Source: Mytilus galloprovincialis
Lineage: Eukaryota; Mollusca; Bivalvia; Mytilida; Mytilidae
Reading direction: 5' to 3'
Length of the DNA stretch: 64,000 nt
NCBI RefSeq assembly: GCF_965363235.1
Contig: NC_134842.1
Location: 3,003,112-3,067,111, forward strand
Part shown: positions 35,488-58,062 of the stretch, piece by piece
Layout of the letters: every line of letters begins with the position of its first letter
Numbering within the stretch: position 1 is the stretch's first letter
Notes under the pieces: model-generated
What the model was told of the DNA's origin: nothing
The model's database searches: none
What the model saw: only the letters and a program-made list of their open reading frames with translations
Program-made: the position numbers and the translations under genes

Positions 35488-35517
35488 TCTTTTGGCTATT
35501 GGTTATGTCATTTCAAG
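35472..35517 (+). CDS. Gene A exon 1: signal peptide
   Basis: ATG at 35472 gives MVAFLVFWLLVMSFQ, a compact hydrophobic signal peptide, then one base before donor CAAG/GTAAGTG (phase 1). The ATG five bases upstream (35467) is out of frame and stops after six codons, so 35472 is taken as the start. A TTTACAG/GA acceptor-like site at about 35452-35458 suggests a separate 5' UTR exon further upstream. Confidence 0.72.
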
Positions 35518-38500
35518 GTAAGTGTTGTTATAAATTTTAATTAGGAAAGAGTAAATATTACAGTGAACATGTTTTGAAAAATAAGTGTGCATTTTCATTT
35601 ATCAAATGAACAAATAATGTTGCAAATCATGTGTAAAACATTTGTAATTTAAGATTTAAGACTTCGGTGTTGACATCAATATCACTAATTTGGTCATTCT
35701 TATACATATATTTTCAATTTTTCGGAAACCTAAGGATTTTCGTATCCCAGGCATAGATTACCTTAACCGATTTTGGCACAATGTTTTGGCACTTTTGGTC
35801 CACGGTGGTTTTCAGCTTTGTACTTTTGGCTTTCAAACTCCTTTCATCTGAGCGTCGCTAGTAAGTATTTGGTGGACGAGGCGCGCGTCTGGCATATTTA
35901 ATTTTCAACCTGGTACCTTTTGTTTGCTATTATTCGTTTGTGTCTCTGTCCTCTATTTTTTCCCATATTTTTGTATTGTAGACCTGTTGATATTTTATCG
36001 TATGTTTTTCTATATTGTGATGTTATGCTATTGTTTCAGAAAAGGGATAAGATTTGGATCCATTAAAACGTTTAATCCCGCTGCAAATGTTTGCACCTGT
36101 CCTAAGTCAGGAATCTCATGTACAGTAGTTGTCGGTTGTTTATGTAATTTATACGTGTTTCTCGTTTCTCGTGGTTTTATTTTTATTGTATATAGATTAG
36201 ACCGTTGGTTTTCCCGTTTGGATGGTTTTACACTAGTAATTTTGGGGCCCTTTATAGCTTGTTGCTCGGTGTGAGCTAAGGCTCCGTGTTGAAGGCTGTA
36301 CATTGACCTATAATGGTTTACCTTTTTTAAATTGTTATTTGGATGGAGAGTTGTCTCATTGGCACTCACACCACATCTTCCTATATCTGTCATGTAATGT
36401 TGTCATTTTAATGTTGTAATTAACATTGCCATTAAAGCGGGAGGTTTGGCATGCCACAAAAACCAGGTTCAACCCACTATTTTTTTCTTAAAATGTCGTT
36501 ACCAAGTCAGGAAAATTACCATTGTAACAGTTATATTATAGTTCGTTTCTGTGTGTGTTATATTTTAAAGTTGTGTCATAGTTTTCTAATATATGATATG
36601 TTTCCCACGGTTTTGGTTTGTGGCCCGGATTTGTATTTTCTCTATGGATTTATGAATTGCGAACATCAGTATACTACTGTTGCCTTTATTAGTCTTAGGT
36701 GCATGCTTTATTTTCTTAGTTGGATTTGAACTAGCTTTCAGAAACTACTCAGAGTACTCTCAGATTTATCCTTGGTATCTTTTTTATGTTGGAATATGTA
36801 AATACCAAGCCAAGTGTATTTGTTATATGAGTTTTTATTTGTACCCAGCTGATGAGTAAAAATCTATGGTCGGATTGTTGTCTCTTTGACACATTCCTCA
36901 CTTCCATTCTCAATTCTATTTTTCAACAGATTATTATAGTTCGTTCTTTTGTTGTACTGTTCCACCACTCTTCCTGGTGTTGTGAGGGTTTGGATCCTAA
37001 CATGTTTAACCCAGCCAAATTCTGAATGTATGTGCCTGACCCAAGTCAAGAGCCTGTAATTCAGTGGTTGTCTTTTTTAATGTATGTATGTGTAACATAT
37101 GTTACATGCCCTTTTCCATATTGGCCCTGGTATCATCCCGAGACTCCCAAATCGGCCTCGAGGAAAAGACATGGTATAAATTTTTTATCACATATTTAAG
37201 TTCTGCAGAAAAGAGAAAAAAGGTCAACTATAATTTAATGAAAGATAAAAGGTAAAATCTTAAACATTTTATCACAAACGTGTTGTTAAGGACGCAATGA
37301 CGTCATGTCATTTAGAATCAAGGCACAATATCAATATACTCTTTTTTGCCCCGGGCAATTTTGGGGCGATTGCATATCCAAAACCCGACGTATTTGTAAC
37401 AAACATGTAATAATGCATATTATTTTTGTTCATATTTTGTTCATAAATTATGCCATTAGTTTTGTAGTTTAAATTGGTTTACATTTGTCATTTCGCGGTC
37501 TCTTTAAGCTGACTTTGCGGTATTTGGTCACTGTTGAAGGCAATACAGTGACCTAAAGTTGTTAATTTCTTTGTCTTTTTGTCCCTCGTAGAGAGTTGTC
37601 TCATTGGCCATGTTGGCAATCTTACCACTATATCTTTTTTCATATTTTCAAATATATCGATTTTTTTTATGGTAGACTCACAGTGTACCGGCATCTTGAT
37701 ATGTATAATTGAAGTACACAGTCCGTCTCCTTCCTTTCCCAAAATCTGAAACTTATGAGACCGATATGCAATGTATGTGTAAGATTGTTAATTTGTGTAG
37801 AGGAACATTATTTATTCCATTATCAAAAAAGTCTAAAGAAATACTAATAATTGTTTCAGAACCATTTTTTTACTTGGCTAGTTAAAGGGAGATAACTCTC
37901 ACCGTAAAACTTTATTTTGAAATGATAGTGAAGTTTTAATTGTTTACTTGTCTTTTGAGATCAAATGAGTCCAATGTATGACTTTAGCGTTTGTTCATCA
38001 AGCACATCGTTGGCGTAATGATTTGAAATATATTTTACAGATATAAGCTACTGCGATATAGAAAGATATGTGTATGTTCATGAAAATGACACAGTTACGT
38101 TATCATGTAGTCTAGATGTAGCGGTATGGTGGGGACCAAGCAATTTAACAACATATGTATCAGGAAAAAAATTAGATCCACAATTTTCAAAATACAACCG
38201 ATTGACGTTCAGCTACAACCAGACCACAAACACATCCGAATTACAAATACAAGATTTTTCAAAAGAAGATGAAGGGTTGTACAGATGTTCATATCTGGAG
38301 AATGGCAAATTGGAGTCAATAGAAGAGATAGTTTTGATTAAAAGTAAATAGTTATTTAAAAACAAAATAATTGAAAGATCACGAATAAACTGAAATGAAA
38401 TTTTATAATAAAAACTATGAAGATTGGTACAAATCCTCTATCTCTCAGCAAACCATTAAGTGCATGTGTTTATTGTATATTTTGTAGTGTATGGCAATTG

Positions 38501-41500
38501 CCACTGTTAAGACCTTGCAAAACGTTTGTACACACGATCAACCTTTTAGTTTTTTCAACCAGATATTTGCATTTCGGGACCTCAAAGAGAAATATATATC
38601 GAAGAGAAACGTCAAATATATTATAAATGTTAATCTTGCATCCGCTATTGTTCTTTTTGCCTCCGTAATAGGTCGGGAAAACTATCTTGAACTGATATGC
38701 ATAAATGAGCATATTACCAATGTCGTCGCACATGTATTTGGTGTTTTTTTTTTACGTTAGACGCAATTGTTCAACTGTTTGTTTTTAACAATCCACTAAA
38801 TGAATAGCAATGCATGATGTACTACTTCTTGTTTACAATCAACCGAGAACAATGACAAACACCTTTCTAAAAGATTTTTCCAAGACTTTTAAAAGGATAT
38901 TTGCAGTAGAATACTGTGTAAAAATTTATATTCAAAATTGTATAGGTGCAAAACAATGTATAAGCATATATCATTGATTTTATTTCATTACCACTAAAAA
39001 CATTTCCTTTTTCTTGTTTGACAATGTTAACAACATCTATAAGTTGAGTTTTGGCATATCTTAGTTATATGGACTTTCTTTTCTATTTCCAACTGTTCTC
39101 TGTGATCTAAAAGTAACAAAGCAATATTTGCCTAAGTCATTGTAAGCAGCTCTAGTTTCGTTTTGTTTTCGTATTTCGTATAAGTTGTGTTCTTTTAATA
39201 TAGATCTAGGAGTTTTCCATATTTTATAAACAGACTTGGATATGTTTCTTTCTTTATAATTTTTGTTATGATAAAATCCATATTCATGTGCGACAAATTG
39301 GTTTTTTTTAATTTGCAGTGATGGGTCTAAACCTTAAATATTTTCTCATATATTGAATACTTTTTCTCCCCGTCTTGTATTAAAATTATGACATTGTTAT
39401 ACACTAGTGGTTTTCACAACATGCTTTTCATCGTTGAAGCTCGTCCTATAACCTACGGTTACTAACTTTACAATAGTGTATCTTAATTGGAGTCAACAGC
39501 TGAATCTTCGTGTTTATCATGAGTGTATTTGTTAATATCATAGAAATTAATTTAAGCACGGTATTTTATCGTATCAGATTTTGCTTTGCAGGAGATCCAA
39601 AGAATATCACTATTGTTGGAGAAAACAACACCCTTTTGTTTGCAAAAAGTAACCACATAGTAAACCTGACATGTTGTGTTGAAAGTGGTATTCCGGCGAA
39701 TGAGACGATCATCTGGATAGGGAATGAAATAGAGTTATCCCGTGGAGGACCCTCAGTACTCACCTACACTTTTACACCTAATGTTGAAGACCATCTGTTG
39801 AATTTTTCGTGTATTGTATTTACTGGTACCATTTCATTGCAAACACACATCCAGTTGTTTTTGTATTGTAAGTAAACAAAATAAACATTATGTTACGACA
39901 GATGATAAAGCCAATTAATCATGTGCATCCAGGGGCATCTATTTACTATTTGCGTGTAATGTATACTATGTATGTGTCAAAAAAATATATTATTATTATA
40001 GTTTAATTGCACTTTGTAGCAAAACTTTTGTCTTTTTAAAAATAAAAAGGTCTCTCGTCTTAAATTTGTACGTATAGTGTACACAAACTCCCAAATTAGT
40101 GTAATTACTTGGATCTACCGGAAAGCAAAAACCTTTACATCAAATACCCTGTGAAATATATTGTGTCGAATAATTTAAGGTTAAATGAGATACTTCAGTT
40201 AGAAAACTCATTTATAATGTATTAAATTCTTCTGTTCAGCTAAGATAATTGTGTTTTGTTTTATATTTCTTTGAAAATAAAACAAAATCCTGCAAAAGGA
40301 TTTCTATTTATAAATAAAGGCCACAGTCGTATACCACAGATCAAAAGTCATGTTTCGATTAAGCAAAAAACAAATCCGAAAACGAAACGAACAAACGAAA
40401 ACCGAGGAAAATACGTGAAATATAAGTGGAAATCAACATAAAATAAGAAACACAGAACAGCAATCGCTAAAGCGGAATTTGAAACATCGCCATATAAGTA
40501 AGATGATTGGTCTGCCATACACCCATGTTTTACTGAGCATTATTTCTTAACTGTTCTGTAGTAATTCAGGAATATGGCAGTTGTTATTTCCCGTCCATTT
40601 CTATTTATTTTGACACTAAAAAAATACAAGAAATAGCAAATGAAATCCCAATGATAAAAAGACAAAATGCACTTCTCAATGATATTAAATAAATTAAAAA
40701 TTAGAAACAACAAACAAAAACAAAAGTTTTATAATTACATGTCCTTATCATTACATAAAACAATTGGTATTTGCATGACATTCTTTTTTTATAAAACCTG
40801 GTTTTAACTTCTATAGATGAACCCGGTGGACACATTTTTGTTAAAACTAATTATAACTTCAAAAGATCATATTGTATAATCCTTGGACAGAATGTCATAA
40901 TATTGACCATAATTGATCTTTTACTATGCAATAGGGTTTGCTGTTTATTATTTGTGTTATATACATGCACTGCCATCAGTAGCAGTATCTGGACCACTCA
41001 TATGTCATTTACGAAAAACATATGCCGAATGAGCCGGCAATTGGTCTTCGGAAATATAGCAGGAGACTGAAAAGCTACGGCGAGACCTACACATGTATAT
41101 CTATTAACATATACATGTACATGCCTGTAGTTCACTATAAAATTCAAGGGTAATACAATGTTTAAAGAACCCCTTGAGAACAAAAATAAATTCAATAAAT
41201 GAACAAGTTAATGCCGTGCTCTCTATGTTATTGCAAGTGTTAATTGTTTTGTGGTAATGTTACTATTGACTGTTTGTTTTTTTCATTCTTTTTTTATTGC
41301 GTGATTATTTGGTGATGTGGTTTTTTTTCTAGTCCCGCCAAGTATACACATTTCGCAAGGACATTTCTTAAGCGTATTGGAGGGCACCACATTGGATTTA
41401 AAATGTGAATACACTTCTAATAGTAAAATCAAAGACATTCTGTGGCAACATGATAGTAAAACAATATCAAATGCATCTCAATTGCATTTTGAGTCTATTA

Positions 41501-44500
41501 AAAGGGAATACAATGGGACATATTTTTGTTCAGTTGTTAATCAGGCTGCAACCGTTTCTGCAAATGTGACAATAGAGGTAGTGTGTAAGTATTTATCAAT
41601 CAGTAATTTATTGAATGTACTAATATGTAATAACATTACATCATTTTGTTTACTTTTCATTTTTTCATCTTGATTAGCTACATTTTAACTCGCTCTATTT
41701 ACGTGTTTGTGATTATCAATAACTCTCAACAGTAAAATTCAAACAAATTTACTAGTAAGTATCAAATAGAACATTATCTATTCATTTCATAAATTGTACT
41801 ACATGTAAAACAAATCAAAACCTTTTAAATCAAAAGGTAGTATAAACACTACACAAACAATCAAAATAAAAAATCGGCAAAATTACCCAATACATGTTTA
41901 ACATTTGTTTACTCTGAACTATACAAAAACAGTCTGACTTTTTATTTTACTCTACCTTTACTAAACCAGTTACAAATGTATGCACTATTGTCAGGAGTCT
42001 TAATTATACTCGACCAAAGTTTAATCATACTTGGTCAAAGTCTGAAATTTACTCGATCAATGCGAAACAATACTTACCCGTGTGAATATATTGTAACCCC
42101 GATTTGTGTCCTCTAAATCGATTTAAGACTTTTGAACAGCAATATACTACTGTTGCCTTTATTTAGCAATACAAAATGTGTAAAATTAAAATATGAATCC
42201 GATAGAAGACATACAATAGAATGTGTAGTCAAAGAAGAGATTGAATGACTAACCTGAAAAAAATCTTGCTCCCGAATATCAATGATCGTTTCATGATGTC
42301 TAATGTACAGGGCTGATGGCACTGTTTAAACAATATAACCTGTTAATATCCACTCACGATTCACCATGGACATACAAGTCCAACATTTAACAGATTCAGT
42401 TAACCCAAATTTACATTCACATTCATATGTATGTATCTTAATTGCAGACCAACCTGATGTTACTATTTCTTTTTCTAATAATGATGGGATCAGACAACTG
42501 ATGTGTATCCCTAATGGTTTTCCAGATCAGTACGAGTTCAGTAATTGGGAACATATATCAGAATTTCGTGAGCATATCCGATATCTACCTCCAGCTAAAA
42601 GTGGAAAATTATATATTCCTTTCATCTCTATGGAATCGGACAGACATTACGATACAGGAGTTTATATATGCTCCGTTTCAAATAATGTATCGGTGGATGG
42701 CAGAACGTTTGTTTCTGCTGAATACTGGCTGAAAAGTTCTGGTAAGTTATGCGATAAACTCTTATCAAAGAAAGGAATTAGTTCTGATGGTATTCCCACA
42801 ATGTGGTGTTAAGTTAGAGGGTACAATCAATAAAACGTAAAACAGCTGTTGGCTGTCTTCTTGAAATTTTTGTGTAGTGACATCACGTAAAATATACTAA
42901 CCATAACTATCAGAGTGCACAACAAAATTGCCGACAGAATTTCTCGGGAAAAGTTTTTGGATAAGAAAGCAGGACAATTCTCAAGGAAAGCATACATGAA
43001 AATAAAACATAGAATGGGTCACTCCCTTGTCCTATTATCACTTGTAACAAGTAACTAAGGCTTCCGTTCTGTACTAATACAATTTTAGGGAATTTGTTTC
43101 TCCTTTCAAATATCAATTTTGAAAAGCAAATACTAGCGTATTATTTGTAAACGATCACGATTATTATTCCATTTGGACTACCAAATGTCAAGATAAGAAT
43201 CATCATATTTTTTATTGATGAAAAGATACAAGCTATCCGAAATATCTAACATTTGTTTATTATTTTTTATTTTTGAACTTCTTATATATATTTATGTATA
43301 TATGCATTTTATTTTTAGGTAAACCATACTTTGTTGCATCAAACAGTGCAGTGCAATACAGTATTTTAGGTCAAAAGTCTGTTCTAACTGCTGATGTAAG
43401 GAATTTTGAAAAACTCATGGATGTTGCATTAAATTCTGATGATATTAAAAAGTATAACAACAGTAAAATCCTGAAATCATCTGTTATAGTCAGGGACAAT
43501 GTATACGGCAAACATGTAATGGTACGTGGGACTAGGTTTATCTTTCCAATCACCACCCAGACTATCGATGACTTTCGACAGTTTATCGTCGTTGTTAATA
43601 ATACAATAGGATCATCTAGTTATGTAATTTCCCTAAGACCTGCAAGTAAGTACTTCCTTTACATTTTAGGAAATTTAAATTTAGAATAGGACTTTCATTG
43701 CACGAAATATATTTTAGGGGCAACGTTTGCTTTATATTCCAAAAACGTATGCAATATATTAAAAAATATTTTCAAAGATAGGCGAAAGATACAAAAGGGA
43801 CGTCAAGACTCGAATTTCAAAAATGAATTGAGGATGCCATGGCCGAAACGACAAACAGACAATCAAAACTGAAAACCGAAACCATAATGAGCACTATAAT
43901 ACAGTATGTCGTAGATAGACACGAAAGGAATCGCTGAAATAAAATAAGAAGAGAAAACGATACCGGATGGACGTTTAAGCTCGAAAATAAACTGACAACA
44001 CCATGGCTAAAACAAAACAAATAGACAAACAATAGTACATAAAACACAACAAAATAAAGACTGAGCAACACAAACTCTAACACAACCTTGGGTTTATTTT
44101 TGGTTTGGTTTTGAATTGTAGGTAGATCGTGCTCTACGTGTGACACCCGTCGTGTTGCTCATGTTGTAATAATAATAATAATAAAATGAATTGAGGATGC
44201 CATGGCCGAAACGACAAATAGACAATCAAAGCTGAAAACCGAAACCATGATGAGCACTTTAATACAGTATGTCGTAAATAGACACGAAAGGAATCGCTGA
44301 AATAATATAAGAAGAGAAAACGATACCGGATGGACGTTTAAGCTCGAAAATAAACTGACAACACCATGGCTAAAACAAAACAAATAGACAAACAATAGTA
44401 CATAAAACACAACAAAATAAAGACTGATCAACACAAACTCTAACACAACCTTGGGTTTATTTTTGGTTTGGTTTTGAATTGTAGGTAGATCGTGCTCTAC

Positions 44501-47500
44501 GTGTGACACCCGTCGTGTTGCTCATGTTGTAAATATTAATAATAATAAAATGAATTGAGGATTCCATGGCCGAAACGACAAACAGACAATGAAAACTGAA
44601 AACCGAAACCATGATGAGCACTATAATACAGTATGTCGTAAATAGACACGAAAGGAACCGCTGAAATAATATAAGAAGAGAAAACGATACCGGATGGACG
44701 TTGAAGCTCGAAAATAAACTGACAACACCATGGCTAAAACAAAACAAATAGACAAACAATAGTACATAAAACACAACAAAATAAAGACTGAGCAACACAA
44801 ACTCTAACACAACCTTGGGTTTATTTTTGGTTTGGTTTTGAATTGTAGGTAGATCGTGCTCTACGTGTGACACCCGTCGTGTTGCTCATGTTGTAATAAT
44901 TCTAGTGATAACGGAGTGAATACAACATTAAGATATAATTTATGCTTAGCAATGCTGGCAAATAATGGTGTCGTTTAACATGTTCAATAAATTCAGAGTT
45001 ACCAAAATTACTTATTTATGATAAACAATAAGTTGAAAAATTAGTTCAATAGTAAAATGCAATTGCATCCCCGTTGATTCGATAATTGGTGTATGTTAAC
45101 ATTTTTGCATTACTAATCATTTTGAATGTTTTGCATACTGTTTTGAATACTGTATACAATGTATAACCGAATGAACATACTGAGTAAAATGTATACACTC
45201 ATCAATGTAGATATGATAAGATTATGTTTATTTCTCTCTCATACATAAAGAGCATGATATCTACTTTTTTTTAAACAATATCTTTGTAATTTAACACTTA
45301 AAATTGTCTTGTTAGGACCGCCAAGGACACCTCAACATGTTAGGGCAGTTGCAATGGACCATTCAATAATAGTAAGATGGATAGCAGACTTAAACAGTGG
45401 ACTAAAAAGACATTTCATCGTAAAGTACCGTAAACATTTTGACCAATCTTGGAGTCAGATTTCTGTAGTAGGGAGTTATACTGCTACCATAAGTGGGTTA
45501 GAACCTGATACAGTTTACTTAGTTCGAGTGTATTCCAAAACAGGAGCTGGTGAAAGTGAAGGAACAACGGAGATTATAGTTAAGACAGGTATACATAATT
45601 TTCACATGAAGTAAATTTATTAGGTGTTATTTTCAGTGGCGGATCCAGAAATTTACATAAGTGGGGGCCCACTGACTGACCTAAGAGGGGGCCCGCTCCA
45701 GTCACGCTTCAATGATTCCCTATATAAGCAACCAAAATTTTTCCCAAAAAGGGGGCCCGGGCCCCCTGGGACCCCTCCCCTAAATCCGCCTCTGATTTGT
45801 GAAATGGAAGAGTTAGTTAAAAGGTCCAATAAACCTATTCAAAAATTCATTTTTAGATAAATGTTTGTTGCCGTCAACAATTCATTAGGGAATTAATTCA
45901 ACTATTTACTTACCTCATGCCTCGTTGAATTCCGAATACTTCCATATTGATAATTGTTTTTTATAGAACCAGCAAACATAAAATTTCAACAATCACATGC
46001 TATACAACTATTGAGATATGTTATATGAAATACAACAAATTCGAAAAACTATTCTACACCTAACCCAATCAATTGATAGGAGACACAACTTTTTTGCAAG
46101 TTTAAATGGATTGAATTAAGTTAGTCTGAACCTAAAGGGTAAAACAAACCGTTGTTATATTGTTATTCCTGTGTGTGTGTATGTTTGTGCGTTTGTGTTA
46201 TGCATACAACTTCAAAAATAGTAACATATTTTCGCAAGGTACATTGTATTATATCAACATCTATAATTTGCTCGATACTTCTATATTCATTTCCAGATAT
46301 ATTGAACATTAGAAATATCATGACAGGATATTACAGCACAAGCAAACAATTGACACGCAATGAATAAAAAAAAAAGCACGGAAGTACATCTATCCAATTC
46401 AAATCATTATGTATGTTAATAAGCTCATATGCGTATGGCCCGAGTAAATAACTAAGGACTGTGTGTGAACTATGCAAAACGTATTGCATAATTATGATTT
46501 CCTTAAAAGACATTTTGACGTATTCAATCATACGGTAACCAATGTAACATTATTAATTAATCACAGTAAATGTTACTTAAATACTTAATACTTGATGTGT
46601 TCCTGGTCATACTGATACGAACATACAATAAAACTTAGATCGTATATATGTATTTACAAGAAGACATGATAGGTTAAATGAAAATAAGTTAATTGTTGGA
46701 ATTATAAAAACATCGAAACAAGAACATAAGAAAAAAGCGGTACATGTCTCAAACGCCTGTGGTTTCACGTACAGACAAAAAAAGTAAAAATGTTGGAGAG
46801 ATGCGCATTAAAAAGACGCGAGGTAAAAAAAATAATAAATACCTCATAACTCAAACTTTATATGTCTAAGATCAAGAAATTCAATAAGTGACGTTTTTGG
46901 ACCAGAAATAAGCTTTGCGTTCTTGCATGCTATGATTATTACACAAATGCACATATGGCTTAAATACTTATATGATCCAGTATGTTAAAAAACGAGTATA
47001 ATACTTATATGGTCGGTTCATTTGCATATGGTCGGATCATATGGATATACACAAATGGTCTTGGATACGCGTATGGTTCAAATACACATACGGTCCGGGA
47101 AATACTATATAAAACACAAAACTATTGTTGCACCATCAATATTAAAGATGTAATACTCATTGTATAGTCTAACTTTTTCTTATGTTTATTTATAGAGAAA
47201 CATCATTATAAGGTTCAAGTCCTGTCTGCAGATTTCGCTGTCATAATTGGAACCATAATTTTATTCATGTTCCTGTGTTGTTGTGGATCTAGAGGTACAA
47301 TATATATGAGCTATAAACAAATTAGAGAACACGCAGTGTCATTATTTTTAGAAGAAGCGAGTTGAACTTAAATAAAACGTAAATATTTGTTAATAAGGCG
47401 ATCATTAGAAAAGATATATAAATTAGATTTAAGTATTTTATTGATGCACTGGTTTCAAAAATAATCAAAGGATATTCACCGTCAGACGTAAGCAAATTGA

Positions 47501-50500
47501 CAATGGCATGGCAAAACACGAAACAATCGAAAAAGCAAACAACAGTATATCGCTTGATATATTAAAAAATAAAATCACAAAAATACTGCACTCCGAGGAA
47601 AGTTCAAAATGGAAAGTACCTAATCAAAGGGCAAAATCAAAAGCTCATTTAACACATCAAACGAATGAATACATGTAACAACTTTCATATTCCTGACTTG
47701 GTACAGGCATTGTCTTATGTAGGAAATGATGGATTGAACCTGGTTTTATAGCTAGCTAAACCTCTCACTTGTAAAAAAAGAAACACAATTAGGCATATAA
47801 ACAAAGTATGTAAGCAAAAATAAAAGATAAGAATACAAAGATTATCAAAGAACAATAACGGGATGTATAGGTACAGAGACACGTCAAACGAATACCACAA
47901 AAAGTAGACTAAACAGTAACAATAGCATCCAAAAAGACAAATAAAAGAATACTATAACACATTATTAAAATAGTAAACAACGTCAGTACCCAGAATTTAT
48001 AATTTAAGACCATAGTGTTTTATTTGTGAAGTTGATACCGAATATTCATCAACACGGTATTTGTATCTTTTTTTTTAAAAGGATGATATTTTCTTTGTCA
48101 TACATCTGGTTCAATCTCCTAAATAACATGTTATTTGGCATATTGAGACTATACTTGCTTTACTCGTGCGCTCATCACTTTATGATATCATTAGTAAACG
48201 GTATAACATACAAATATAAACAAATCAATATTTGTATTTTCCCATTGTGCGCCATCCAATTTCCTGACGAAACCAACGTTTTGCTACGTGGATGCAACTA
48301 TGTATTTGTTACAAAATCTACATAATTAAATTATCGTTCATAGTACGGCATTTACAATGAGCAACATATACAACGTATGGTAAGCTATGACAGACACCAA
48401 CATCAAATATGTAAACTCATCCATTGAACAAAACAAATAAAAAATAAATATGACGGACACAAACGAACGACAACTAATGTGTTACATGTTTCTGACCGGG
48501 ACAAGGAACAGAACAAAAATATATTAATATAGAAAAATAAAACAGAACAATATCGTAAAATAATTTTACCGCTTGATATTAGGAATGAACACGATTTATA
48601 CCAGTAAAGGAAGACAATGTTACAGTAATGGTTTAATAATTCGTCTAGGCATTTTTATTTACGAATGCAAATTTTTATTTAATTTATCTTATTTTCTTTT
48701 CATCACTATTTTCAGCTTTGAAGAACCGACAAAGCATTAGCAGAAAAAAAGAAAGTAATTCCACTAAGTAAGTTTAATGTAATTATCTTGTATTGTTTAT
48801 GCACTATACATTTTGATATCAATATTGAAAAGATTTGCCAATTAGTTTGCTGGACGGCCAAAGTCTGTATTATAAAAGATAACACGGTACATATATGGTA
48901 TAATCTGACACAAACTTAGTTGTTTTTTTTATGATAGAAAATACACATTATCGTGTGTATAAATTTGAACACGATTGGATTTAAATATATAGAAAACGTG
49001 TTCCACATTACAACAACTCGTTTCTTCTTCAGATGTAATGTATTATATCTTTGTTCTTAAATTACACACACCGTTGAACAATTCTATCGAATTTCTAATT
49101 TTCCAATTTTCTATTCGAATCATCTATGTTCTTTGGTAAAATGTTATATCGTAACAAAAAGAGCAGAAAAGTCACCACAGTCAAGTTATAAAGTCGAATA
49201 TATCAGATTATCGATTTTCAAGAAAATGTCATCTCATTTCATTAAGCATAATGAACGTTATAAATTCAGATTCTAGACCAGATCAAATACGTTTAAAACA
49301 TGCAAAATGTAATTTTTAATTCATTTATAAATGTTTAATCATGTGAGAATTTTCAATATAATGAATCTTTGTTACAAATTGACGTTGGGTCAATCTGATG
49401 TCAGATAACGCATGACAAAACAAACAAGACTTACTCATTTGTGGCCTGATGCTGTTATCTGCTTTATGGTCGGTATGATGTCTCTTTGCTATATTCTCCA
49501 TTTTCATTCCTAGTTTAATTGATAATATAATAGTACAATAGCTATTAAAATGATAATATTATGTTTCATACTATACCTATATAAGCATCATATACCTTCA
49601 GTCTTAACCGTATATGTATGTTTGGCAGGAGAAATCCAAGAATCGACGATATATCTTCAAGAAACGATGAAACATCTACAAGACTAGATCATTACGATGA
49701 AATAACTAGTTCGTATTATAATCCTCAAGCTAAAAGGAACAACACACAACAAGAAATACATCAGCCATTAAACAGCAATGAACATTTGGAAACCTATAGC
49801 GTTTCTTGTAAAAATATAACACCCAAAACCATTCACCAAGACTCACAATGTCAAGAGAATGTATCATCACGATCATCTTCTGAAGAATCGTATCTTGCTC
49901 CTTGTAGAAGCTATGTCAATACTGATCTTACACACAATACCAAATACGAGAGTCCCGATAGAAATATTGTATTAGCAGATATACACTTACTTGAAGAATT
50001 GTCAGTTGCCAGTGACATTAGTGAAACAAATATGAAAGGCATTCTAAAATACGAATCATTACAATTATCCAACACAAACGAACATGCATATAACAAATAT
50101 AACGATACAGAGTTATAGAATGTAGGTGGTGTTACTTTTTTACAAATAGTTTTCATCAGTGTGAAATGATATTCATTTTAATTGAGAATTTTTTTTTAAT
50201 GTAAAATTAATTGTTTGTTAACTTCATTCTATTTTTGATTCCTGATTTTATTTAGACATTAATCAGTATGTACAGTTCTATTGTCCAATTGTATCTTATT
50301 AAAACTGTTTCTTTTACATCATTTTTTATAAGAAGATATAATTTATCTTTTTATAAGTCTATAACTAGAGGCTCCAAGGAGTCTGTGTCGCTCATCTGAT
50401 ATTGTTTCTTACAATTGATCCATGAAATAATGCAACTTTGGGGTCAGTTTCAGAGATAGAAGTAAAAAAACTGAATTTGTCCCCTATTTTCTAGTTTTAG

Positions 50501-53500
50501 CCATGTCTGACATGTTGGGTAGGCAGGGTCACCAGCCACATTTTTTAAACTAGATACTGTAATGCTCCCTAACCTGGTAACAACACAACATAAGAACACA
50601 CAGGTTTTGATTGACAACCAAAACCCAATACTACTAGTACATGATGTACGCAGCGGTTTTCTTGGCTACTAAAATGATTCACAATATTTAAATTCGATTC
50701 CAGAAAAAGGAAACAGATCTGAATTTGACGATTACATAGAAAACTTTTTACATTAGCAGATATGATATATGCCTTCTTTTGTACAATACTGACGAATTAA
50801 TGTCGAACATGCTATTCGCAGATTTAAATGTTTGCGCTGGTTTAGTAGAAAGATGACAAAGTTTATTGACCGAAAGTTATGAAACTTCACTTTATCATGC
50901 TCCATTTTACTTTACATTGTATTATACGATTGAAAAAACAAGCAAAACGTTTTTTGAGACGACCCCCTTAACATGTGTATTGTCTCGCAACTCTCGTTTG
51001 TTGTTTGGCAACATTAATCATTTATCTTACATGTCTATTTGTTACGTACAGAGGACGTGTTTTTCAACAGACTGGAATTGGAACCAATTGTGCCCCTCCT
51101 CTCGACGACTTGTTTCTTTGTCATTATGAGGCTGACTTCATACAGGAACTTCTCAAGAAGAAAGATAAGAATTTGGCAATATTTTTTAACTCTACTTTCC
51201 GCTATATAGACAATGATAGAAGATATTCTTTCACTAAATAATTAAAAATTTGGTGACTATGTTGAACGCACCTATCCCATCGAACTAGAGATACAGCTTA
51301 TAGCAGATACAGTTAAGTCGGCCTCATATCTTGACTTACATCTAGAAACATCTAATTAGCAACATTCCTATAGCACCTGCATACGGGATATATATCTCAC
51401 AATTGATAGTATATTCCCGTGCTTGCATTTCCTGAGACGATTTTCTTGATAGAGGGTTTTTCACAAGGAAGCTATTAAACCAAGAGTTCCAGATGGTGAA
51501 GTTGAAATTATCCCTTCGTAAATTTTACGGACGCCATCACGAGTTGGTTGACCGTTATGGAATAACCGTTTCACATTTGGTATCGGATATGTTCCTTAAG
51601 TCGTAACTACAATCCCCTTCCCTTTCATGAATGTGACCTACGGAATTAGCCTATTCACCGGATTTGTCATAACATGAGCAACACGACGGGTGTCACACGT
51701 GGAGTAGGATCTGCTTACCCTTCCGGAGCCCCTGAGATCACCCTAGTTTTTTTGTGGGGTTCGTGTTGCTTATTCCTTAGTTGTCATGTGTGCCATTGTG
51801 TGTATGTTTGTCTTTTTCATTTTTAACCATGGCGTTGTCAGTTTATTGTCGATTTATGTTAAAATGTGTAATTCGCAAAAACAACATTTTACATCAAATA
51901 ATAACCGCTCGTTTGAATAATGTCACTAGCGCTTACCTGTCTCTTCGCAATTTTAAGGCGACGATTTAACAATGTCTTTGGGGACACTACTGTGTCACTT
52001 TGTCACGTCTATAACGTAAAGAGAGATAAATCAAACGATTTTTGTGAGATTTGTTTAATTTTTGCTGAAGTATGGTTAATTCATTCACTTGCAATCGTAT
52101 GGTTGGAGGTCGTATAGGTTGTCTGTGAATATGGACCCTTTAACACATTGAATTATCAGTCTATCTGGTGTACCATTTCTTGCAATGGCGCATACATTAT
52201 AGCGAATTAGGTTTACTGGTTTTAAATCAATGTCTGTATTTGAAACAATGGTTTTGACTTTTGGTAGTGTAATTGACGTCCAGGTTTCCATATATTCACA
52301 AAAACCACACCAAGGGTTGTTACACTTTTTATGTGTTTTAAAGTAATGCATGCAACAAAATTAGCGCTTATTAAAACTTTTATTATTTTTTTTTTATACG
52401 GATCATTATTTTCAGAAAGGGAACTTTCTGTTGTTCAGACGTTTGCAATTGCAAATCAACGTACAACATAAACCAATGACATAAAGCAATACGTTATATC
52501 AAGTTCAAACATTAAAAAGAACTGCTTGACTTGAACAACCACAACAACACCAACAACAACGACGAATTATGACAAAGAGCAACCAAAGTCTAAACCATTG
52601 TATCAATTAAATTGGTTAGTGAAAAATAATATTACATTATAAATTACCAAAGGTAATCAGAAAGACAAAAAATTGGTGTTTGCATTACAGAAAAACAACA
52701 ATTAGTTGGTATTGTATTTCCATTGGAATTCGCAATAATAATTGGAGGCGTGCTAATAATACCGTACCTGTGTTTTTTTGGAATGAAAGGTAAACACATA
52801 TACGAGATATTAGTAATTACCTTTCATAACCGTTATAATAATGAATTACAAATGAAATGATTATGAAAATGAAGAATTATACTATCCCTTTGTCGGCACA
52901 TGCTCGCCATGTATAAAAATCTTCATCAATAATGAACAGAGTCAACGGATAAGATTTGCACTCACCTCTTTAGTATTGACATATAGTTGGTCACGGTAGA
53001 TAAGCTACATAAAAGAGGGACGAAAGACACCAAAAGGACAGTCAAACTACATAAACTTCGCGACCACCGAGTTCCAAAATCCATGATTAAAGAATGTCAT
53101 ACAGAAAAAAATATACTAAATCCATAGAAAAAGGGTTGTGTACTTCAATACAACGTGTGATGACAGTTTATACACTTGTGTCGTTAAAGTTACTTTCCAG
53201 ATGGGTTTACGGCCTTGGGTGATTGATTCAATAAAAAAGCTTGTCTTTTCTTTCTTAATTGAAACAAAAAATACCAGTACCTGATTCTTTTCAGAAGTGA
53301 ATTGTGCTCTTACTAGTCACATGTTTGTTTTAAAAAGAAAGGCTATATTATCGTATTAAATTGCTTTCATACGACATGGGTTACATTATATGGCGTTCCA
53401 TTTCAACATTTGCCCGAATCAAATAAATCGTCTTTCCGCAAGAAAAATGGCTTGATCGCCTTTTGAAAACACTACAACATGTAACAAAAACCGCCAGAAG

Positions 53501-56246
53501 CTATGACAAAAGGTGGAAATCACCAAGAACGTAATAAAATAAAAATCAATTTAATATTGATCGTTTATATCTGAATTATTGGTAAATGCATTTTGACAGC
53601 ATTCTAAAATCGTCATAATCACATTTGTATATTGCTACTAAATCGTTTGACGGTAAGATATAAACATTATGTGTGTTTAATTTTAAAGCAACCACTTTAA
53701 AAGAGGGACGAAAGATACCAAAGGGACAGTCAAACTCATAAATCTAAAACAAACTGACAACGCCATGGCTAAAAATGAAAAAGACAAACAGAAAAACAAT
53801 AGTACACATGACACAACATAGAAAACTAAAGAAATAAACAACACGAACCCCACCAAAAACTAGGGGTGATCTCAGGTGCTCCGGAAGGGTAAGCAGATCC
53901 TGCTCCACATGCGGCACCCGTCGTGTTGCTTATGTGATTACAAATCCGGTAAATAGTCTAATTCGGTAGGTCAAATTAAATGAAAGGGAAGGGGATTGTA
54001 GTTACGACGTGAGGAACGGGATATATAATTTGATATATAATTTCTAAATATCGGGAATAAATTATTTTACAAAACCAAATGCAAAGAGTTGTCTACAAAC
54101 TCAATCTGAAACACTGTTCATCATTATGCTTTGCAAAAGATAACCGTAATACTTGGTTGTCTAAAACAGAAATATTTGATATACAATATAACATAAATAT
54201 CACCAAACAAGGCAGTTGTTCATGTTCATTCCAAAATGAAAATAGCTTGTAATTGATGCACCATTCTCAACTAACGTTTATTTTGTTTTCTATTTAATGT
54301 AGGTTCATTTGTATGCTTTGGAGTTGAGTGTGACGTCAGTTTGGTTAAAATTATAAATTATTGTTCAGGGGAAAGCTGAAACCCGACTATTGTAGCAGGA
54401 TTTTTTCCGCTTTATTGAAGAACCATTTGTTGCCTTGCGTTTTTAGGTTAGGTAAAACGCTATGTTTGGCCTTTATGAAGTTGGTTTAATTAAGGAATGA
54501 CTGTAATATTTTTTCTGTCTATGAAAAAATAACATAAAAAATTTGGTGCACACTGAATAACGCGCGTAGCAGTGTGCACCACAATTTGTATGTTATTTCG
54601 AATAGACAGAAAAAAATATTACAGTCATTTCTTATAATTTAATTCTAAATTCCATGTTAAACCGTAGAAAACCATGAAAAAACGTTGATGACGTCACGGT
54701 CACATGACTGAATTATGTCTATGGGCTTATAACAAAATAACGTCAGCCAATCAGGAGACATCGAAAATTAAATTATATATAAATAAATGGGGAATGTGTC
54801 AAAAGGACACAGCTGATGCCCCCGATTGCATACAAAGTTGTAAAGTGACAAACTGTAAAAGTGACGCTACCCAAATTGATTTGAGTTGTGTGGAAATAAA
54901 TAATGTGTATACGTTTTATAACAGGTAGTTGAGGTAAACTTAAGTTAGAGAAGTCAACATAAATAAAAAATGCAGCATTTTTTCCATTTATAAATGCGCC
55001 TAATTCTAAAAGTATAAATGACGCCAACAAAAATCAAACTGTATCTGTGTTTTGTGGTAATAAGCATTGTGTATAAGTTTCCATACATTAAGTTCAGTCA
55101 AACTAAAGTAAAAGAACGGAAACCAATTTTGGGACGTTCGTATAGACGGACAAGGGCAAAACGTTATGCCAAATCCGCTACGACGTCGAAAGGGCTTACA
55201 CAACTAGTATATAATCTATCTGGTTAATCATATTGATTTCTGCTTAATATAAATTCTTAATGTTCCGAATACACGTTTCATACAGCTTTCAAGAACAGAC
55301 AGAAGTTTTGCAGAAATAATGAAAGGTAAAGATTTCTTTCTCGAAATAAATTTCCACGGTCGTATTTTTTTTAAAACAGCATGATGTTATTTGGCTAATA
55401 TTATAGACAAGATTTAAAGTATTTACACACAGACAGGCATATATTACACCTTAGAAGTACCTTATGATAAAATATTTGTCTGAAATAATTGCGAATAAAT
55501 AAAAAGAATTGAAAGGTACAATACGAACTGGGCAAAAAGCTGTACCTAATTACATTTCATATTATAAAGTTGACAAAAATTGTAGTTAGTAAACCAAACT
55601 TATCAGTAAAACACTTTTATAATTAATGGTGCCAGACGGGTGTTTCTAAAAATTGGAAACTTTCTAGTGTAACAGTTAGGAAATACTGTAACTTATACTT
55701 TACGAGCATCGATAACATATCATATAACTGCATGTTATCTCTTAATGTATATTTTTAAACAGGGTACATGCAGCTCATGATGAAACATCTGTACACCCAG
55801 TTCGCGCTCATTACGATGAAATTGACAGCATGTATTATAATCCAATTAACGAAACCATACCTCCTCAGAACATCAGAAGCAACACACAACGTACACCTTC
55901 AACCGGTATTGAAAATTTTAAAAACAGTGAAACTAATAACAGATTCAGTGAAACTTTTATCGACCATCAGCTTGAATCGAGTCATGAGAATAACTCTCCA
56001 GGGTCATCATCAGACGAATCCTACCTCGTTCCTTGTACAAAGTATATTGATTTCGATCTTCAGAAGTTATCTGATAACCGGGATGTAAACATGAGTAACG
56101 ACGAACCAGAAATACCCAATGTAGAATCATCTATTTCAAGTAACAATAGCGAAACAAATACTAAAAGTATTCAGAAATACGAATCATTAAAAGCGTCTGA
56201 TATTAATGAGCATTGTTACACAAATTACAATGATATCGGAGTCTGA
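35472..56246 (+). CDS. Gene A: Ig5-FN3 transmembrane receptor with two alternative TM/tail cassettes
   Basis: Shared exons: 35472-35517, 38041-38343, 39592-39867, 41333-41584, 42448-42741, 43319-43645, 45316-45588. Cassette A: 47196-47294, 48716-48767, 49629-50118. Cassette B: 52691-52789, 55286-55325, 55763-56246. The summed coding lengths are 2412 nt (803 aa plus stop) with A and 2394 nt (797 aa plus stop) with B, both in frame throughout. The ectodomain is five Ig-type domains and one FN3, built like adhesion and recognition receptors of the nephrin/NCAM style; no specific orthologue is claimed. The tails are rich in tyrosine motifs for SH2-domain binding, so a signalling role is likely. 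All ectodomain introns are phase 1, so exons could be skipped without a frameshift. Confidence 0.82.
35650..35925 (-). repeat. R2 repeat, inverted partial unit
   Basis: Reverse complement of the unit: 'cttcggtgttgacatcaat', 'ctaaggattttcgtatccca', 'ggcatagattaccttaacc' and 'ggcgcgcgtctggcatat'. It lies in gene A intron 1, facing the array at 33915-35105. Confidence 0.8.
36015..37640 (+). repeat. R4 and R1 repeat cluster in gene A intron 1
   Basis: R4 copies at 36015-36390 and 36960-37640 both contain 'gtcctaagtcagg' or 'gacccaagtcaag', 'gctgac' plus 'gcggta', and end near 'gagttgtctcattggc'. An R1 fragment lies between them at 36430-36705, and a reversed R3 end ('gacacattcctcacttccatt') at 36870-36910. 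Open frames here are repeat-derived. Confidence 0.65.
38041..38343 (+). CDS. Gene A exon 2: Ig domain 1
   Basis: A 303 bp exon, phase 1 to 1, between acceptor TATTTTACAG/AT and donor ATTAAAA/GTAAAT. It encodes residues 16-116. Core features: Cys38 in VTLSCSL, Trp45-Trp46 in VWWGP, then LQIQDFSKEDEGLYRCSY with Cys98, the D-x-G-x-Y-x-C signature of V- or I-set domains. Cys20 near the start is extra. Sequons at N50-L-T, N75-Q-T and N79-T-S. It is the membrane-distal domain and so the likeliest ligand-contacting module. Confidence 0.85.
38344..39591. other. Gene A intron 2
   Basis: No other exon or repeat family was recognised. Confidence 0.45.
39592..39867 (+). CDS. Gene A exon 3: Ig domain 2
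   Basis: A 276 bp exon, phase 1 to 1, between acceptor TTTGCTTTGCAG/GA and donor TTGTATT/GTAAGT. It encodes residues 117-208. Cys144-Cys145 lie in VNLTCCVESGIP, Trp158 in TIIWIGNE, and Cys190 in LLNFSCIV. This is a C2/I-set pattern lacking the usual D-x-G-x-Y before the second Cys (HLLNFSC instead). Sequons at N121-I-T, N129-T-L (not a sequon), N141-L-T, N153-E-T and N187-F-S. The paired CC is unusual. Confidence 0.8.
39868..41332. other. Gene A intron 3
   Basis: Holds a decayed R1 fragment near 40300-40620 ('aataaaggccacagtcgtat', 'ttcaggaatatggcagttgt'). No exon is supported. Confidence 0.45.
41333..41584 (+). CDS. Gene A exon 4: Ig domain 3
   Basis: An 84-codon exon, phase 1 to 1, between acceptor TTTTTTTTCTAG/TC and donor GTGT/GTAAGT. 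It encodes residues 209-292. It begins with PPSIHIS, the linker typical of I-set modules, then VLEGTTLDLKCEY (Cys233), ILWQHD (Trp246) and YNGTYFCSVVNQA (Cys274), a complete I-set signature of small size. It ends in EVVC, a further Cys at the domain border. Confidence 0.85.
41585..42447. other. Gene A intron 4
   Basis: An R1 end near 42090-42165 ('gaacagcaatatactactgt', 'tgcctttatt') is the only recognised feature. Confidence 0.4.
42448..42741 (+). CDS. Gene A exon 5: Ig domain 4
   Basis: A 294 bp exon, phase 1 to 1, between acceptor TTAATTGCAG/AC and donor TTCTG/GTAAGT. It encodes residues 293-390. QPDVTISFSN leads to Cys312 in QLMCIPNGFP, Trp326 in FSNWEHIS, and Cys367 in DTGVYICSVSNN. The CIPNGFPDQYEFSNWEH stretch is a form I associate with an expanded family of molluscan Ig/FN3 receptors; this is recollection and was not checked by search. 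Confidence 0.83.
43319..43645 (+). CDS. Gene A exon 6: cysteine-free Ig-like domain 5
   Basis: A 327 bp exon, phase 1 to 1, between acceptor ATTTTTAG/GT and donor CTGCAA/GTAAGT. It encodes residues 391-499. No cysteine occurs in the whole exon. It still reads as an Ig module: ILGQKSVLTADVRNF stands where a B strand with Cys is expected, and FRQFIVVVNNTIGSSSYVIS mirrors the F-G strands with Val in place of the second Cys. This is inference from spacing and position. The open frame continues before the acceptor, but only the part from 43319 is phase-consistent. Confidence 0.75.
43790..44905 (-). repeat. Three tandem copies of a retroelement 3' tail, 363-364 bp unit
   Basis: Units begin at 43823, 44186 and 44550 with atgaattgaggat. 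They are nearly identical, and each ends 'gacacccgtcgtgttgctca', the reverse complement of the tail at 51680. Long minus-strand frames in each unit differ only at scattered sites because the DNA itself is repeated; they are not genes. The units are joined by AAT/ATT microsatellite. The array lies in gene A intron 6, opposite to the gene. Confidence 0.9.
45316..45588 (+). CDS. Gene A exon 7: fibronectin type III domain
   Basis: A 273 bp exon, phase 1 to 1, between acceptor TTGTTAG/GA and donor AAGACAG/GTATAC. It encodes residues 500-590. FN3 hallmarks in order: PPRTPQHVRAV, the B-strand Trp in IIVRWIAD, FIVKYRKHF, then ISGLEPDTVYLVRVYSKTGA with the conserved L-x-P-x-T-x-Y. It is the membrane-proximal domain. 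Its phase 1 donor fits both downstream transmembrane exons, making it the branch point for the two cassettes. Confidence 0.9.
45634..45794. mobile_element. Short MITE with cagtggcggatccag termini
   Basis: The left end is cagtggcggatccag; the right end (ctaaatccgcctctg) is its inverted copy with three mismatches. The interior is rich in g and c runs (gggggcccgggccccctggg). No clear target-site duplication was seen. It lies 46 bp after the FN3 exon donor in gene A. Confidence 0.7.
46975..47100. repeat. Decayed copy of the palindrome-rich element
   Basis: Alternating catatggtcggatcatatgg, acgcgtatggttcaaatac and acatacggtccggg resemble the termini of the element at 18549-19235. It ends about 95 bp before the cassette A transmembrane exon. 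Confidence 0.5.
47196..47294 (+). CDS. Gene A exon 8A: transmembrane exon, cassette A
   Basis: A 99 bp exon, phase 1 to 1, between acceptor TTTATTTATAG/AG and donor TCTAGAG/GTACAA. It encodes residues 591-623: EKHHYKVQVLSAD, then FAVIIGTIILFMFLCCC as membrane helix, then GSR. The CCC at the inner face is a possible palmitoylation site. It has the same length, phases and EK...FA-II-G skeleton as exon 8B at 52691. Confidence 0.83.
47565..48070 (-). repeat. R1 repeat, long copy
   Basis: Starts 'aaaatcacaaaaatactgca', passes 'ttcctgacttggtacaggca', 'ggattgaacctggttttata' and 'gctagctaaacctctcactt', and ends 'aagaccatagtgttttattt'. Better preserved than the copy at 165-870. In gene A intron 8A. 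Confidence 0.7.
48716..48767 (+). CDS. Gene A exon 9A: juxtamembrane cytoplasmic exon, cassette A
   Basis: A 52 bp exon, phase 1 to 2, between acceptor CACTATTTTCAG/CT and donor ACTAA/GTAAGT. It encodes ALKNRQSISRKKESNST, a basic stop-transfer and serine-rich stretch directly inside the membrane. It is homologous to exon 9B (AFKNRQ...), with the same entry and exit phases. It is too short to recognise without the cassette comparison. Confidence 0.72.
49629..50118 (+). CDS. Gene A exon 10A: terminal tail exon, cassette A
   Basis: The acceptor is TTTGGCAG/GAGAAA, entered in phase 2; the exon runs to TAG at 50116-50118. It encodes residues 641-803, hydrophilic and rich in Ser, Asn and Tyr. Tyrosine motifs in order: HYDEI (Src-type SH2 site), SYYNP (YxN and YxxP), SSEESYLAPC (YxxP), RSYVNT (YxN), ILKYESL (fits the ITIM rule, L at -2 and L at +3) and NEHAYNKYND. 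The SH2 readings are consensus-based predictions. An ATTAAA at 50298 could serve as its poly(A) signal. Confidence 0.82.
50119..50990. other. 3' flank of cassette A and start of the inter-cassette region
   Basis: After the presumed poly(A) site, a dispersed block at 50365-50510 ('gaggctccaaggagtctgtg', 'tcgctcatctgatattg') is probably a repeat. No exon was recognised. Confidence 0.4.
50298..50303 (+). terminator. Candidate poly(A) signal for cassette A
   Basis: ATTAAA, the commonest variant hexamer, lies 180 bp after the cassette A stop codon, with T-rich sequence following. Use of this site would remove cassette B from the transcript. Confidence 0.35.
50991..51870 (+). pseudogene. Retroelement reverse-transcriptase relic with 3' tail
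   Basis: Frames read in order: GIGTNCAPPLDDLFL, then FNSTFRYIDN (the catalytic Y-x-D-D box, here degraded to YIDN), a shift to ELEIQLIADTVKSASYLDLHL, and a shift to KLSLRKFYGRHHELVDRYGI, ending at a stop near 51606. The next ~260 bp are the tail ('atgagcaacacgacgggtgt', 'ggagcccctgagatcaccct', 'tttttaaccatggcgttgtc'). It is dead by frameshifts and by loss of an active-site Asp. The family may be Penelope-like or another non-LTR type; the class was not resolved. Confidence 0.75.
52100..52351 (-). pseudogene. Possible retroelement relic with a cysteine cluster
   Basis: A minus-strand frame reads KKCNNPWCGFCEYMETW and later DLKPVNLIRYNVCA. The C-x4-C-x2-C spacing followed by a N-L-I-Y-like strand recalls the segment before the GIY-YIG region in Penelope-type proteins. 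The resemblance is weak, and the frame ends without a recognisable nuclease core. Confidence 0.25.
52691..52789 (+). CDS. Gene A exon 8B: transmembrane exon, cassette B
   Basis: A 99 bp exon, phase 1 to 1, between acceptor TTTGCATTACAG/AA and donor ATGAAAG/GTAAAC. It encodes EKQQLVGIVFPLE, then FAIIIGGVLIIPYLCFF, then GMK. Length, phases and the E-K and F-A-x-I-I-G positions match exon 8A, so it is a duplicate. No second set of Ig or FN3 exons is seen between 50119 and 52690, so it can only be used by joining the shared FN3 exon or as part of a broken duplicate gene. Confidence 0.78.
53690..54020 (-). repeat. Retroelement 3' tail copy, inverted relative to 51680
   Basis: 'gagggacgaaagatacca', 'gggacagtcaaactcata', 'cgccatggctaaaaatga', 'aacacgaaccccaccaaaa' and 'gcacccgtcgtgttgctta', ending with 'gggaaggggattgtagttac', which is the very end of the reverse-transcriptase frame. 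A 5'-truncated insertion. A shorter tail fragment lies at 53010-53055. Confidence 0.8.
54496..54629. repeat. Hairpin MITE-like inverted repeat
   Basis: The arms start aatgactgtaatattttttc and end gaaaaaaatattacagtcatt; inner arms ggtgcacactg and cagtgtgcacc meet around gcgcg. Non-coding, in gene A intron 8B. Confidence 0.85.
55286..55325 (+). CDS. Gene A exon 9B: juxtamembrane cytoplasmic exon, cassette B
   Basis: A 40 bp exon, phase 1 to 2, between acceptor ACGTTTCATACAG/CT and donor GAAAG/GTAAAG. It encodes AFKNRQKFCRNNE, homologous to ALKNRQSISRKKE of exon 9A but four codons shorter. Phases match the flanking cassette B exons exactly. Confidence 0.7.
55763..56246 (+). CDS. Gene A exon 10B: terminal tail exon, cassette B
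   Basis: The acceptor is TTTTTAAACAG/GGTACA, entered in phase 2; the exon runs to TGA at 56244-56246. It encodes residues 637-797. Motifs shared with tail A in the same order: HYDEI, MYYNP, SSDESYLVPC, TKYID, KYESL and NEHCYTNYND. Differences: the KYESL site is preceded by Q at -2 (IQKYESL) and so does not meet the strict ITIM rule, and the YVN (Grb2-type) site is replaced by YID. A long open frame with retained motifs and flanking splice sites argues that it is functional. Confidence 0.8.
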
Positions 56247-57002: not shown

Positions 57003-58062
57003 ACTTATAATTACATTTTTTCGCTATGATCATGAAAGCACGAATTTAATATTTCTTTTAATTAATTTACCTGTGCACTTTTTTGTGCAACCACGTGTTA
57101 TCATGAATGATAAATTTTATTGAGTGATGCAATTGCTTCAGGAATAACACGTGATGTGCAGTTAGCCAATCAGAATAAAGTATTATAATGAAACATACAT
57201 CCAATGTAATTATATCGATGTATTATGTTTAATGAATGAAACAAACAACCATCAACTACCATAAATGTGAATATCATTACTAATGTTAACGAAGCCGTGA
57301 TAGAGTTCCTGTATTCAATGTTGTACAGATTTTAATAAATGATATATATGAATAAAAATAAATTTGAGCGTCACGCTGAAATTTTTACTTTTGATATTCA
57401 TTGGAAAGGTTTCCGTCATTCGAATTAATTTATTTTCGCTCGTTGAACAGTTATTTTATACCGTTGTGAGTAGGGGAGACCCCACTATATATAGGTTCAT
57501 GGCTTGTCTTTATTCTTGTTATGCTTCGTCCCTACCAAGTTCATAATTTTAGTGTGACTGTAATATTTGGAACGGTAATTCCAGGGCAAACCAATTAACA
57601 TTTCGTTCAAAATATGTATGACAATCTTGTTCAGATGGCTTCGGAACATCATGACGAATAGCTTTTAACATTAGAAATGGTTAGCTACATCTACAAAAAA
57701 GCCACATGTCTGGACATTGTCCGTTAACGCCAATGACGTTTTCCCCCAATTTTTCCATTATATAGACAAATATTTTACACCGCAAAAACTGACAGCATGA
57801 GGAACCTTTAACGGCTACGTATTAAATTCAATGTGTATCATTAATATATATATGTGGGTTGAAAAAAAAATTATTTCGCTACTTTGATGAGTCATATCCA
57901 GACGAAACTCTAGCCTTGTGTACACAAGTATCAGCATCGCATCTACTTGTTCTACTTGTATGAAAAGTGCTTGCCAGAACAACAGAAAATTGAAAGTATA
58001 CATACACATTAAAAATAAAATCAGTGATAAAATAGAATTATCATACGTAAATGGATACATTT

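Follow-up and report, generated by a model that had tools for sequence, protein, structure and literature searches.

A mussel IgSF/FN3 receptor gene with two putative alternative transmembrane-plus-tail cassettes at its 3' end

Alternative receptor endings are a known kind of arrangement, met here in a new gene. In Drosophila Dscam1, exon 17 exists as two alternative transmembrane (TM) exons, TM1 and TM2, of which each mRNA carries one, and the choice between them is described as affecting subcellular targeting, with the two TMs favouring dendrites or axons (PMC2566808, PMC5465998). Crustacean Dscam is reported to have variable cytoplasmic tails and, through alternative splicing, a tail-less form (PMC5465998), while CEACAM1-L and CEACAM1-S place alternative cytoplasmic tails with different signalling behind one Ig head (PMC6213298). 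Chelicerate Dscam carries tandem cassettes at the 5' end (PMC4835542). In bivalves, oyster CgIgIT and CgIgIT2 are Ig-domain TM receptors with five Ig domains, no FN3 and tyrosine-motif tails (PMC11999971); the text of that article speaks of an ITAM, whereas CgIgIT2 is termed an inhibitory receptor in the title of reference 93 there. An expansion of nephrin-, contactin- and hemicentin-like genes has been described in Pinna (PMC13093298). Among the literature matches listed, judged by title and start of abstract, none presented a molluscan receptor with duplicated TM-plus-tail cassettes.

Layout of the gene and of its family

In a window of 64 kb, which is the whole stretch of DNA that was analysed, we rebuilt from the sequence a plus-strand gene made up of a signal exon, five domain exons and an FN3 exon, after which TM, juxtamembrane (JM) and tail exons come twice over, as cassettes A and B (Table 1). 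All 12 acceptors carry AG and all 11 donors GT; phase 1-1 holds for both TM exons and for every ectodomain exon but the first, phase 1-2 for the JM exons and phase 2-stop for the tail exons. The TM exons are equal in length (99 nt each) and the JM exons are not (52 nt in A versus 40 nt in B). A preliminary description of this DNA had proposed that one FN3 exon is followed by two three-exon sets that agree in order, phase and TM exon length, and that either set yields an uninterrupted protein; our reconstruction recovered the same boundaries and, upon splicing, open reading frames of the same lengths, 803 aa with cassette A and 797 aa with cassette B.

Table 1. Exons and candidate poly(A) signals of the two-cassette gene (window positions) and family tails on contig C5 (positions prefixed C5)
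Feature	Position	Strand	Remarks
First coding exon, signal-peptide-like, phase 1 donor	35472..35517	+	ATG then MVAFLVFWLLVMSFQ; donor 9/9 to consensus
Ig1 exon, V-set-like	38041..38343	+	Pfam V-set, residues 24-107 of spliced protein
Ig2 exon, Ig-like by eye	39592..39867	+	weak C2-set_2 match under Pfam cut-off
Ig3 exon	41333..41584	+	Pfam Ig_3, residues 210-278
Ig4 exon, Ig-like by eye	42448..42741	+	45-48% identical copies in P1, P2
Fifth ectodomain exon (D5), fold unassigned	43319..43645	+	35-36% identical copy in paralogue P2
FN3 exon, last ectodomain exon, common to both forms, phase 1-1	45316..45588	+	Pfam fn3, residues 505-586
Cassette A TM exon, 99 nt, phase 1-1	47196..47294	+	acceptor 78% pyrimidine, donor 5/9
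Cassette A JM exon, 52 nt, phase 1-2	48716..48767	+	
Cassette A tail exon, phase 2-stop	49629..50118	+	
ATTAAA, first candidate poly(A) signal past tail A	50298..50303	+	180 nt after stop
Cassette B TM exon, 99 nt, phase 1-1	52691..52789	+	acceptor 56% pyrimidine, donor 7/9
Cassette B JM exon, 40 nt, phase 1-2	55286..55325	+	
Cassette B tail exon, phase 2-stop	55763..56246	+	
Three AATAAA poly(A)-type signals	57334..57362	+	about 1.1 kb past tail B stop
Family tails A and B, two-cassette gene	C5, window positions as above	+	
P1 tail	C5:3140245	+	
P2 tail	C5:3624836	+	
P3 tail	C5:39960190	+	
P4 tail	C5:3491671	-	
P5 tail	C5:35377471	+	
P6 tail	C5:46913852	-	
P7 tail	C5:46758420	-	
P8 tail	C5:2827823	+	
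Q1 tail	C5:47498565	-	

Pfam searches with the 803-aa form placed Ig domains over Ig1 and Ig3 and an fn3 domain over the FN3 exon, all above the cut-off. Searched singly, the Ig2, Ig4 and D5 exons gave no Pfam match above the cut-off, and Ig2 and Ig4 are therefore labelled Ig-type by eye only; tail B contained no Pfam family. Sequence matches in the PDB were to generic Ig/FN3 proteins (best CD22 d6-d7, 4.6e-12), Rfam yielded nothing in the window at gathering scores, and a protein search with the 803-aa form returned none at E<=0.001 among the 7998 candidates scored, those with the most shared words, which we read as a gap in the collection with no bearing on expression. With its Ig-type exons, FN3, TM, JM, tyrosine-rich tail and phase-1 ectodomain exons the gene falls among the IgSF/FN3 single-pass receptors. 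Its 3' end has the anatomy of tandem terminal cassettes: a single ectodomain with two homologous sets of terminal exons after it, both complete and in frame.

The preliminary description had also stated that no second ectodomain lies between the cassettes, and this was borne out: tblastn with the Ig1-Ig4, D5 and FN3 peptides of this gene gave nothing at E<0.5 between 50118 and 52691, and an HMM of the family FN3 had no match between tail A and TM_B. A scan of exons of 40-127 nt revealed no convincing signal exon between the cassettes. Because neither a second head nor such a signal exon was detected there, the FN3 exon common to both forms is the simplest partner for cassette B.

Other features of the window include a tandem repeat in the D5-FN3 intron, in which nearly the same minus-strand ORF occurs three times in a row (43817-44885), and, also on the minus strand, a reverse transcriptase fragment (14756-15187; Pfam RVT_1, E 3.2e-8) and a 206-aa ORF that is Ig-like by eye and has no Pfam match at E<=0.5 (20450-21067). 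Inverted copies of one repeat flank TM_B (51591-51858 and 53737-54017; 79-95% complementary over 38-202 nt), and a hairpin between them could loop the TM_B exon out.

Whole-genome searches with tail A (8 matches), tail B (10) and the P5 tail (10), whose counts are lower bounds, revealed at least 11 family tails at at least 10 loci, all on contig C5, which is one chromosome. Among the 10 loci found (again a lower bound), only the two-cassette gene has two tails. P1, P2 and P3 each possess one complete FN3, one TM and one tail. HMM scans of the flanks of P1-P8, covering roughly 8-16 kb beyond the tails on the downstream side and with continuous upstream cover of about 1.5 kb for P5-P8, identified no second tail (one weak P7 match, E 0.21) and no convincing TM for P4. 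The detected exons of P1 start about 59 kb downstream of the two-cassette gene on the same strand.

Several of these relatives have peculiarities of their own. Between FN3 and TM of P1 lies a near-copy of the P1 FN3 exon (C5:3134755-3134946) that is truncated, without splice sites and, by eye, flanked by short inverted sequences. Upstream of the sole P6 tail found are two intact FN3 exons, 6 kb apart (C5:46925507-46925773 and 46931539-46931805); they may belong to two heads that lie close to a single tail, the converse of the two-cassette layout, or else to one receptor having both FN3 domains. P8 is probably decaying, with an internally shortened tail (C5:2827823-2828083) and an in-frame stop in its FN3 exon (C5:2824191-2824442), and the open tail frame of P7 (C5:46758420-46758827) ends before the KYESL-type block. 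The FN3 family exon Q2 (C5:47470857-47471123, plus strand) had no family tail nearby in the whole-genome tail searches.

Constraint on and divergence of the two cassettes

Tails A and B are both under purifying selection. With a purpose-written codon branch model, omega on the tail B branch was 0.28 (p=0.030 against 1) on the protein tree of eight taxa and 0.30, 0.32, 0.28 and 0.29 (p=0.0019-0.0073) in four other tree/taxon settings; for the tail A branch it was 0.15 (p=1.7e-4) on the protein tree and 0.14-0.19 (p=2.1e-4 to 1.9e-6) in the other four. Profile HMMs trained without A and B, the TM model being then built from P1-P3 only, recognised tail B (E 1.4e-38), tail A (4.2e-33) and TM_A (1.8e-10), and TM_B weakly (1.1e-3). 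The 27 tail residues that are invariant in P1-P6, in an alignment that included A and B, are all present in tail A, and 25 of them in tail B. In simulations of neutral drift of an unused cassette B, with survival defined as no stops and intact splice bases, 16.5% of runs still had an intact cassette after 0.05 substitutions per site, and 2.7% after 0.1; with assumed indels (one per ten substitutions) the corresponding values were 2.1% and 0.04%. That cassette B is an old relic is unlikely; the selection measured is an average over the branch, and a very recent loss of use would be compatible with it. The constraint on tail B and the intactness of the cassette together suggest that cassette B is probably expressed.

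The identity between tails A and B is just 42% (63/149), which rules out an allelic or assembly duplicate. Tail A is 47-48% and tail B 51-52% identical to the tails of P1 and P2, and over P1-P3 the ranges are 38-48% for A and 44-52% for B. TM_A is 38-41% identical to the TMs of P1-P3 and TM_B 31-34%, a range that covers all four of the other TMs in the alignment. With TM_A nearer to the P1-P3 TMs but tail B nearer to the P1-P3 tails, there is room for mosaic isoforms.

As to the origin of the pair, AU tests did not reject A and B as sisters on protein (p=0.139) or DNA (0.197 with eight taxa, 0.484 with five), and a codon model on six taxa did (p=0.028). Contrary to this rejection, under the purpose-written codon model with eight taxa the tree with A+B as sisters scored better, at an lnL of -3572.2 versus -3575.5 for the protein tree, two trees that also differ elsewhere. 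Resolution of the tail trees is poor. The FN3 trees set the two-cassette gene and P1-P3 apart from P4-P8, Q1 and Q2 (support 90% for protein, 98% for codon and 97% for DNA) and place P1-P3 together without the two-cassette gene (79% protein, 76% DNA), the codon tree arranging that side differently. We infer that the A-B split may be about as old as the split of the two-cassette gene from P1-P3.

Common to both tails are the tyrosine blocks YDEI, YYNP, SYLxP and KYESL. Tail A has 10 tyrosines, ends in DTEL and carries YVN after the SYLxP block; tail B has 8 tyrosines, ends in DIGV and has no YVN there. YVN and the two C-terminal ends might, we presume, be Grb2 or PDZ ligands. The preliminary description had portrayed one head coupled to different signalling tails: its single head with two tandem TM-plus-tail cassettes agrees with the anatomy, with the lack of a second head or convincing signal exon between them and with the selection on both tails, and its different signalling is overstated, since the two tails, 42% identical, are versions of a single module and share its three tyrosine blocks.

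The ITAM pattern, YxxL/I x6-8 YxxL/I, occurred in none of the eight tails scanned. Applying the ITIM consensus as printed in PMC6213298, we found a single match in tail A, such as 41% of its shuffled versions would be expected to give, and also one in P1. Seven patterns were tried in all; one of them, a loose x6-12 ITAM-like form, matches tail B and is expected after shuffling in 2.3% of B tails. A split into an activating and an inhibitory tail is unsupported, as the ITIM match is near chance and no tail has an x6-8 ITAM; the combination of paired receptors, an ITAM in one form and an ITIM in the other, was not found. It is very improbable that this one gene is a paired activating/inhibitory receptor whose head is switched between an activating-leaning B and an inhibitory-leaning A. 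What suggests such a reading is, in tail B, the loose pair YESL-x12-YNDI (comparable pairs, spaced x9, occur in P1, P5 and P6) and, in tail A, a second site reading YNDT together with the ITIM consensus LKYESL. Were it true, both receptor kinds would come from one invertebrate gene.

Choice between the two ends and competing explanations

We consider it likely that the locus is a single IgSF/FN3-family receptor gene with two alternative 3'-terminal cassettes, presumably chosen by splicing or poly(A). For form A, the nascent RNA would be spliced from FN3 to TM_A and cleaved past tail A (variant ATTAAA signal); for form B, cassette A would be skipped, the FN3 donor joined to TM_B and the RNA cleaved past tail B. 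Ligand specificity and the core tyrosine blocks (YDEI/YYNP, SYLxP, KYESL) would not differ between the two isoforms, which would be unlike in TM, in the length of the JM segment, in accessory tyrosines and at the C-terminus (-DTEL in A, -DIGV in B). With heads and core blocks alike and TM and C-terminus unlike, the most probable role of cassette choice is to tune partners or localisation, not to exchange one pathway for another. Against this two-ended gene count the weak recognition of TM_B and the fact that none of the nine other loci found has two tails; as judged from the genomic sequence, it is real and probably functional.

Signals at the choice points are suggestive only and not exceptional within the gene. 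The TM_A donor is the lowest of the 11 donors (5/9), and the FN3 donor is likewise weak at 6/9, as is that of Ig3. The TM_A acceptor is richer in pyrimidine than that of TM_B (78% and 56%), the latter value being found in 5/12 acceptors (those of Ig1, of tail A and of the three cassette B exons). No AATAAA lies within 2.5 kb past the tail A stop; of eight tails examined over this distance tail A alone has zero and the other seven have 2-9 each, and zero is not rare because about three are expected at that base composition. Past tail B, further poly(A)-type signals are ATTAAA at 56357 and AATAAA at 57174. Pairing of RNA from the FN3-TM_A intron with the stretch ahead of TM_B gave a best duplex of -162.2, below all 12 shuffles (-142.3 +/- 5.9, lowest -155.0), but was set aside as evidence, since whole windows were paired, local folding was ignored and the repeats are of uneven composition.

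Cassette B might instead be the stranded 3' end of a tandem neighbour whose ectodomain was deleted recently, still intact since the loss is young. Family members do lie nearby, the detected P1 exons beginning about 59 kb downstream, likewise on the plus strand. Tail B also shares more with the P1/P2 tails (51-52%) than with tail A (42%), a sister relation of A and B is rejected by the six-taxon codon tree (AU p=0.028), and inverted repeat copies sit on both sides of TM_B. However, the intact ORFs and splice sites cap the unused period at roughly 0.05-0.1 substitutions per site, the AU tests on protein (p=0.139) and DNA (0.197, 0.484) do not reject A+B as sisters, and tblastn and the FN3 HMM found no remnant of Ig, D5 or FN3 exons between A and B; we regard such a stranded end as unlikely.

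Both cassettes could also be used in part. The preliminary description had called them interchangeable, in accord with their matching phases and order, but exchange of a whole cassette is just one option, as mosaics like TM_A-JM_A-tail_B fit the phases too. Mosaic splicing proper, in which tail B would follow TM_A through either JM_A or JM_B and TM_B would seldom if ever be used, is permitted by the exon phases and in keeping with the closeness of TM_A to the P1-P3 TMs and of tail B to the P1-P3 tails, yet it is quite improbable: TM_B is open and hydrophobic, has AG/GT borders and a 7/9 donor, and is matched, though at E 1.1e-3, by an HMM trained without A and B. Finally, a promoter of its own would let cassette B encode a short headless TM-plus-tail protein, acting as decoy or adaptor. 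Three signal-like hydrophobic ATG ORFs between the cassettes (51786-51867, a nested start at 51804, and 51920-52043) have a GT in the right phase, but their donors are poor (TGT/GTAATT, TTT/GTGAGA) and the first ORF overlaps an arm of the inverted repeat, which makes this idea barely plausible.

Comparison with described receptors

If both isoforms of the two-cassette gene are made, the locus would be a natural test of the share of TM and tail in the output of an Ig receptor with the head held constant, placed in a family whose nine other tail-bearing loci found have single tails; it would also show diversity of output arising at the 3' end of a receptor gene and not in the head.

Dscam has about ten Ig and six FN3 domains. 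The mussel gene lies outside that family, with four Ig-type exons (two of them recognised by Pfam), one unassigned and one FN3. In the accounts cited at the outset, Dscam1 resembles it as an IgSF/FN3 receptor with alternative TM exons and differs in that just the TM exon comes in two variants, tail exons 19 and 23 being included or skipped, whereas in the mussel gene TM, JM, whole tail and 3' end are all duplicated. Crustacean Dscam, likened here on its published description, offers the parallel of one head with a tail that is variable or absent, but belongs to the Dscam family and has hypervariable heads. CEACAM1-L and -S, as described, differ in tail length, with ITIMs in L, whereas in the mussel gene the two tails are homologous, both are full length and each has a TM to itself. 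Oyster CgIgIT and CgIgIT2 are, by description, similar in being bivalve Ig TM receptors with tyrosine motifs; they differ in having five Ig domains and no FN3, and the portion of PMC11999971 that describes them does not mention alternative tails. Chelicerate Dscam, from the published outline, is also an IgSF gene with tandem cassettes at one of its ends; there they stand at the 5' end, the mirror image of the two 3' cassettes of the mussel gene.
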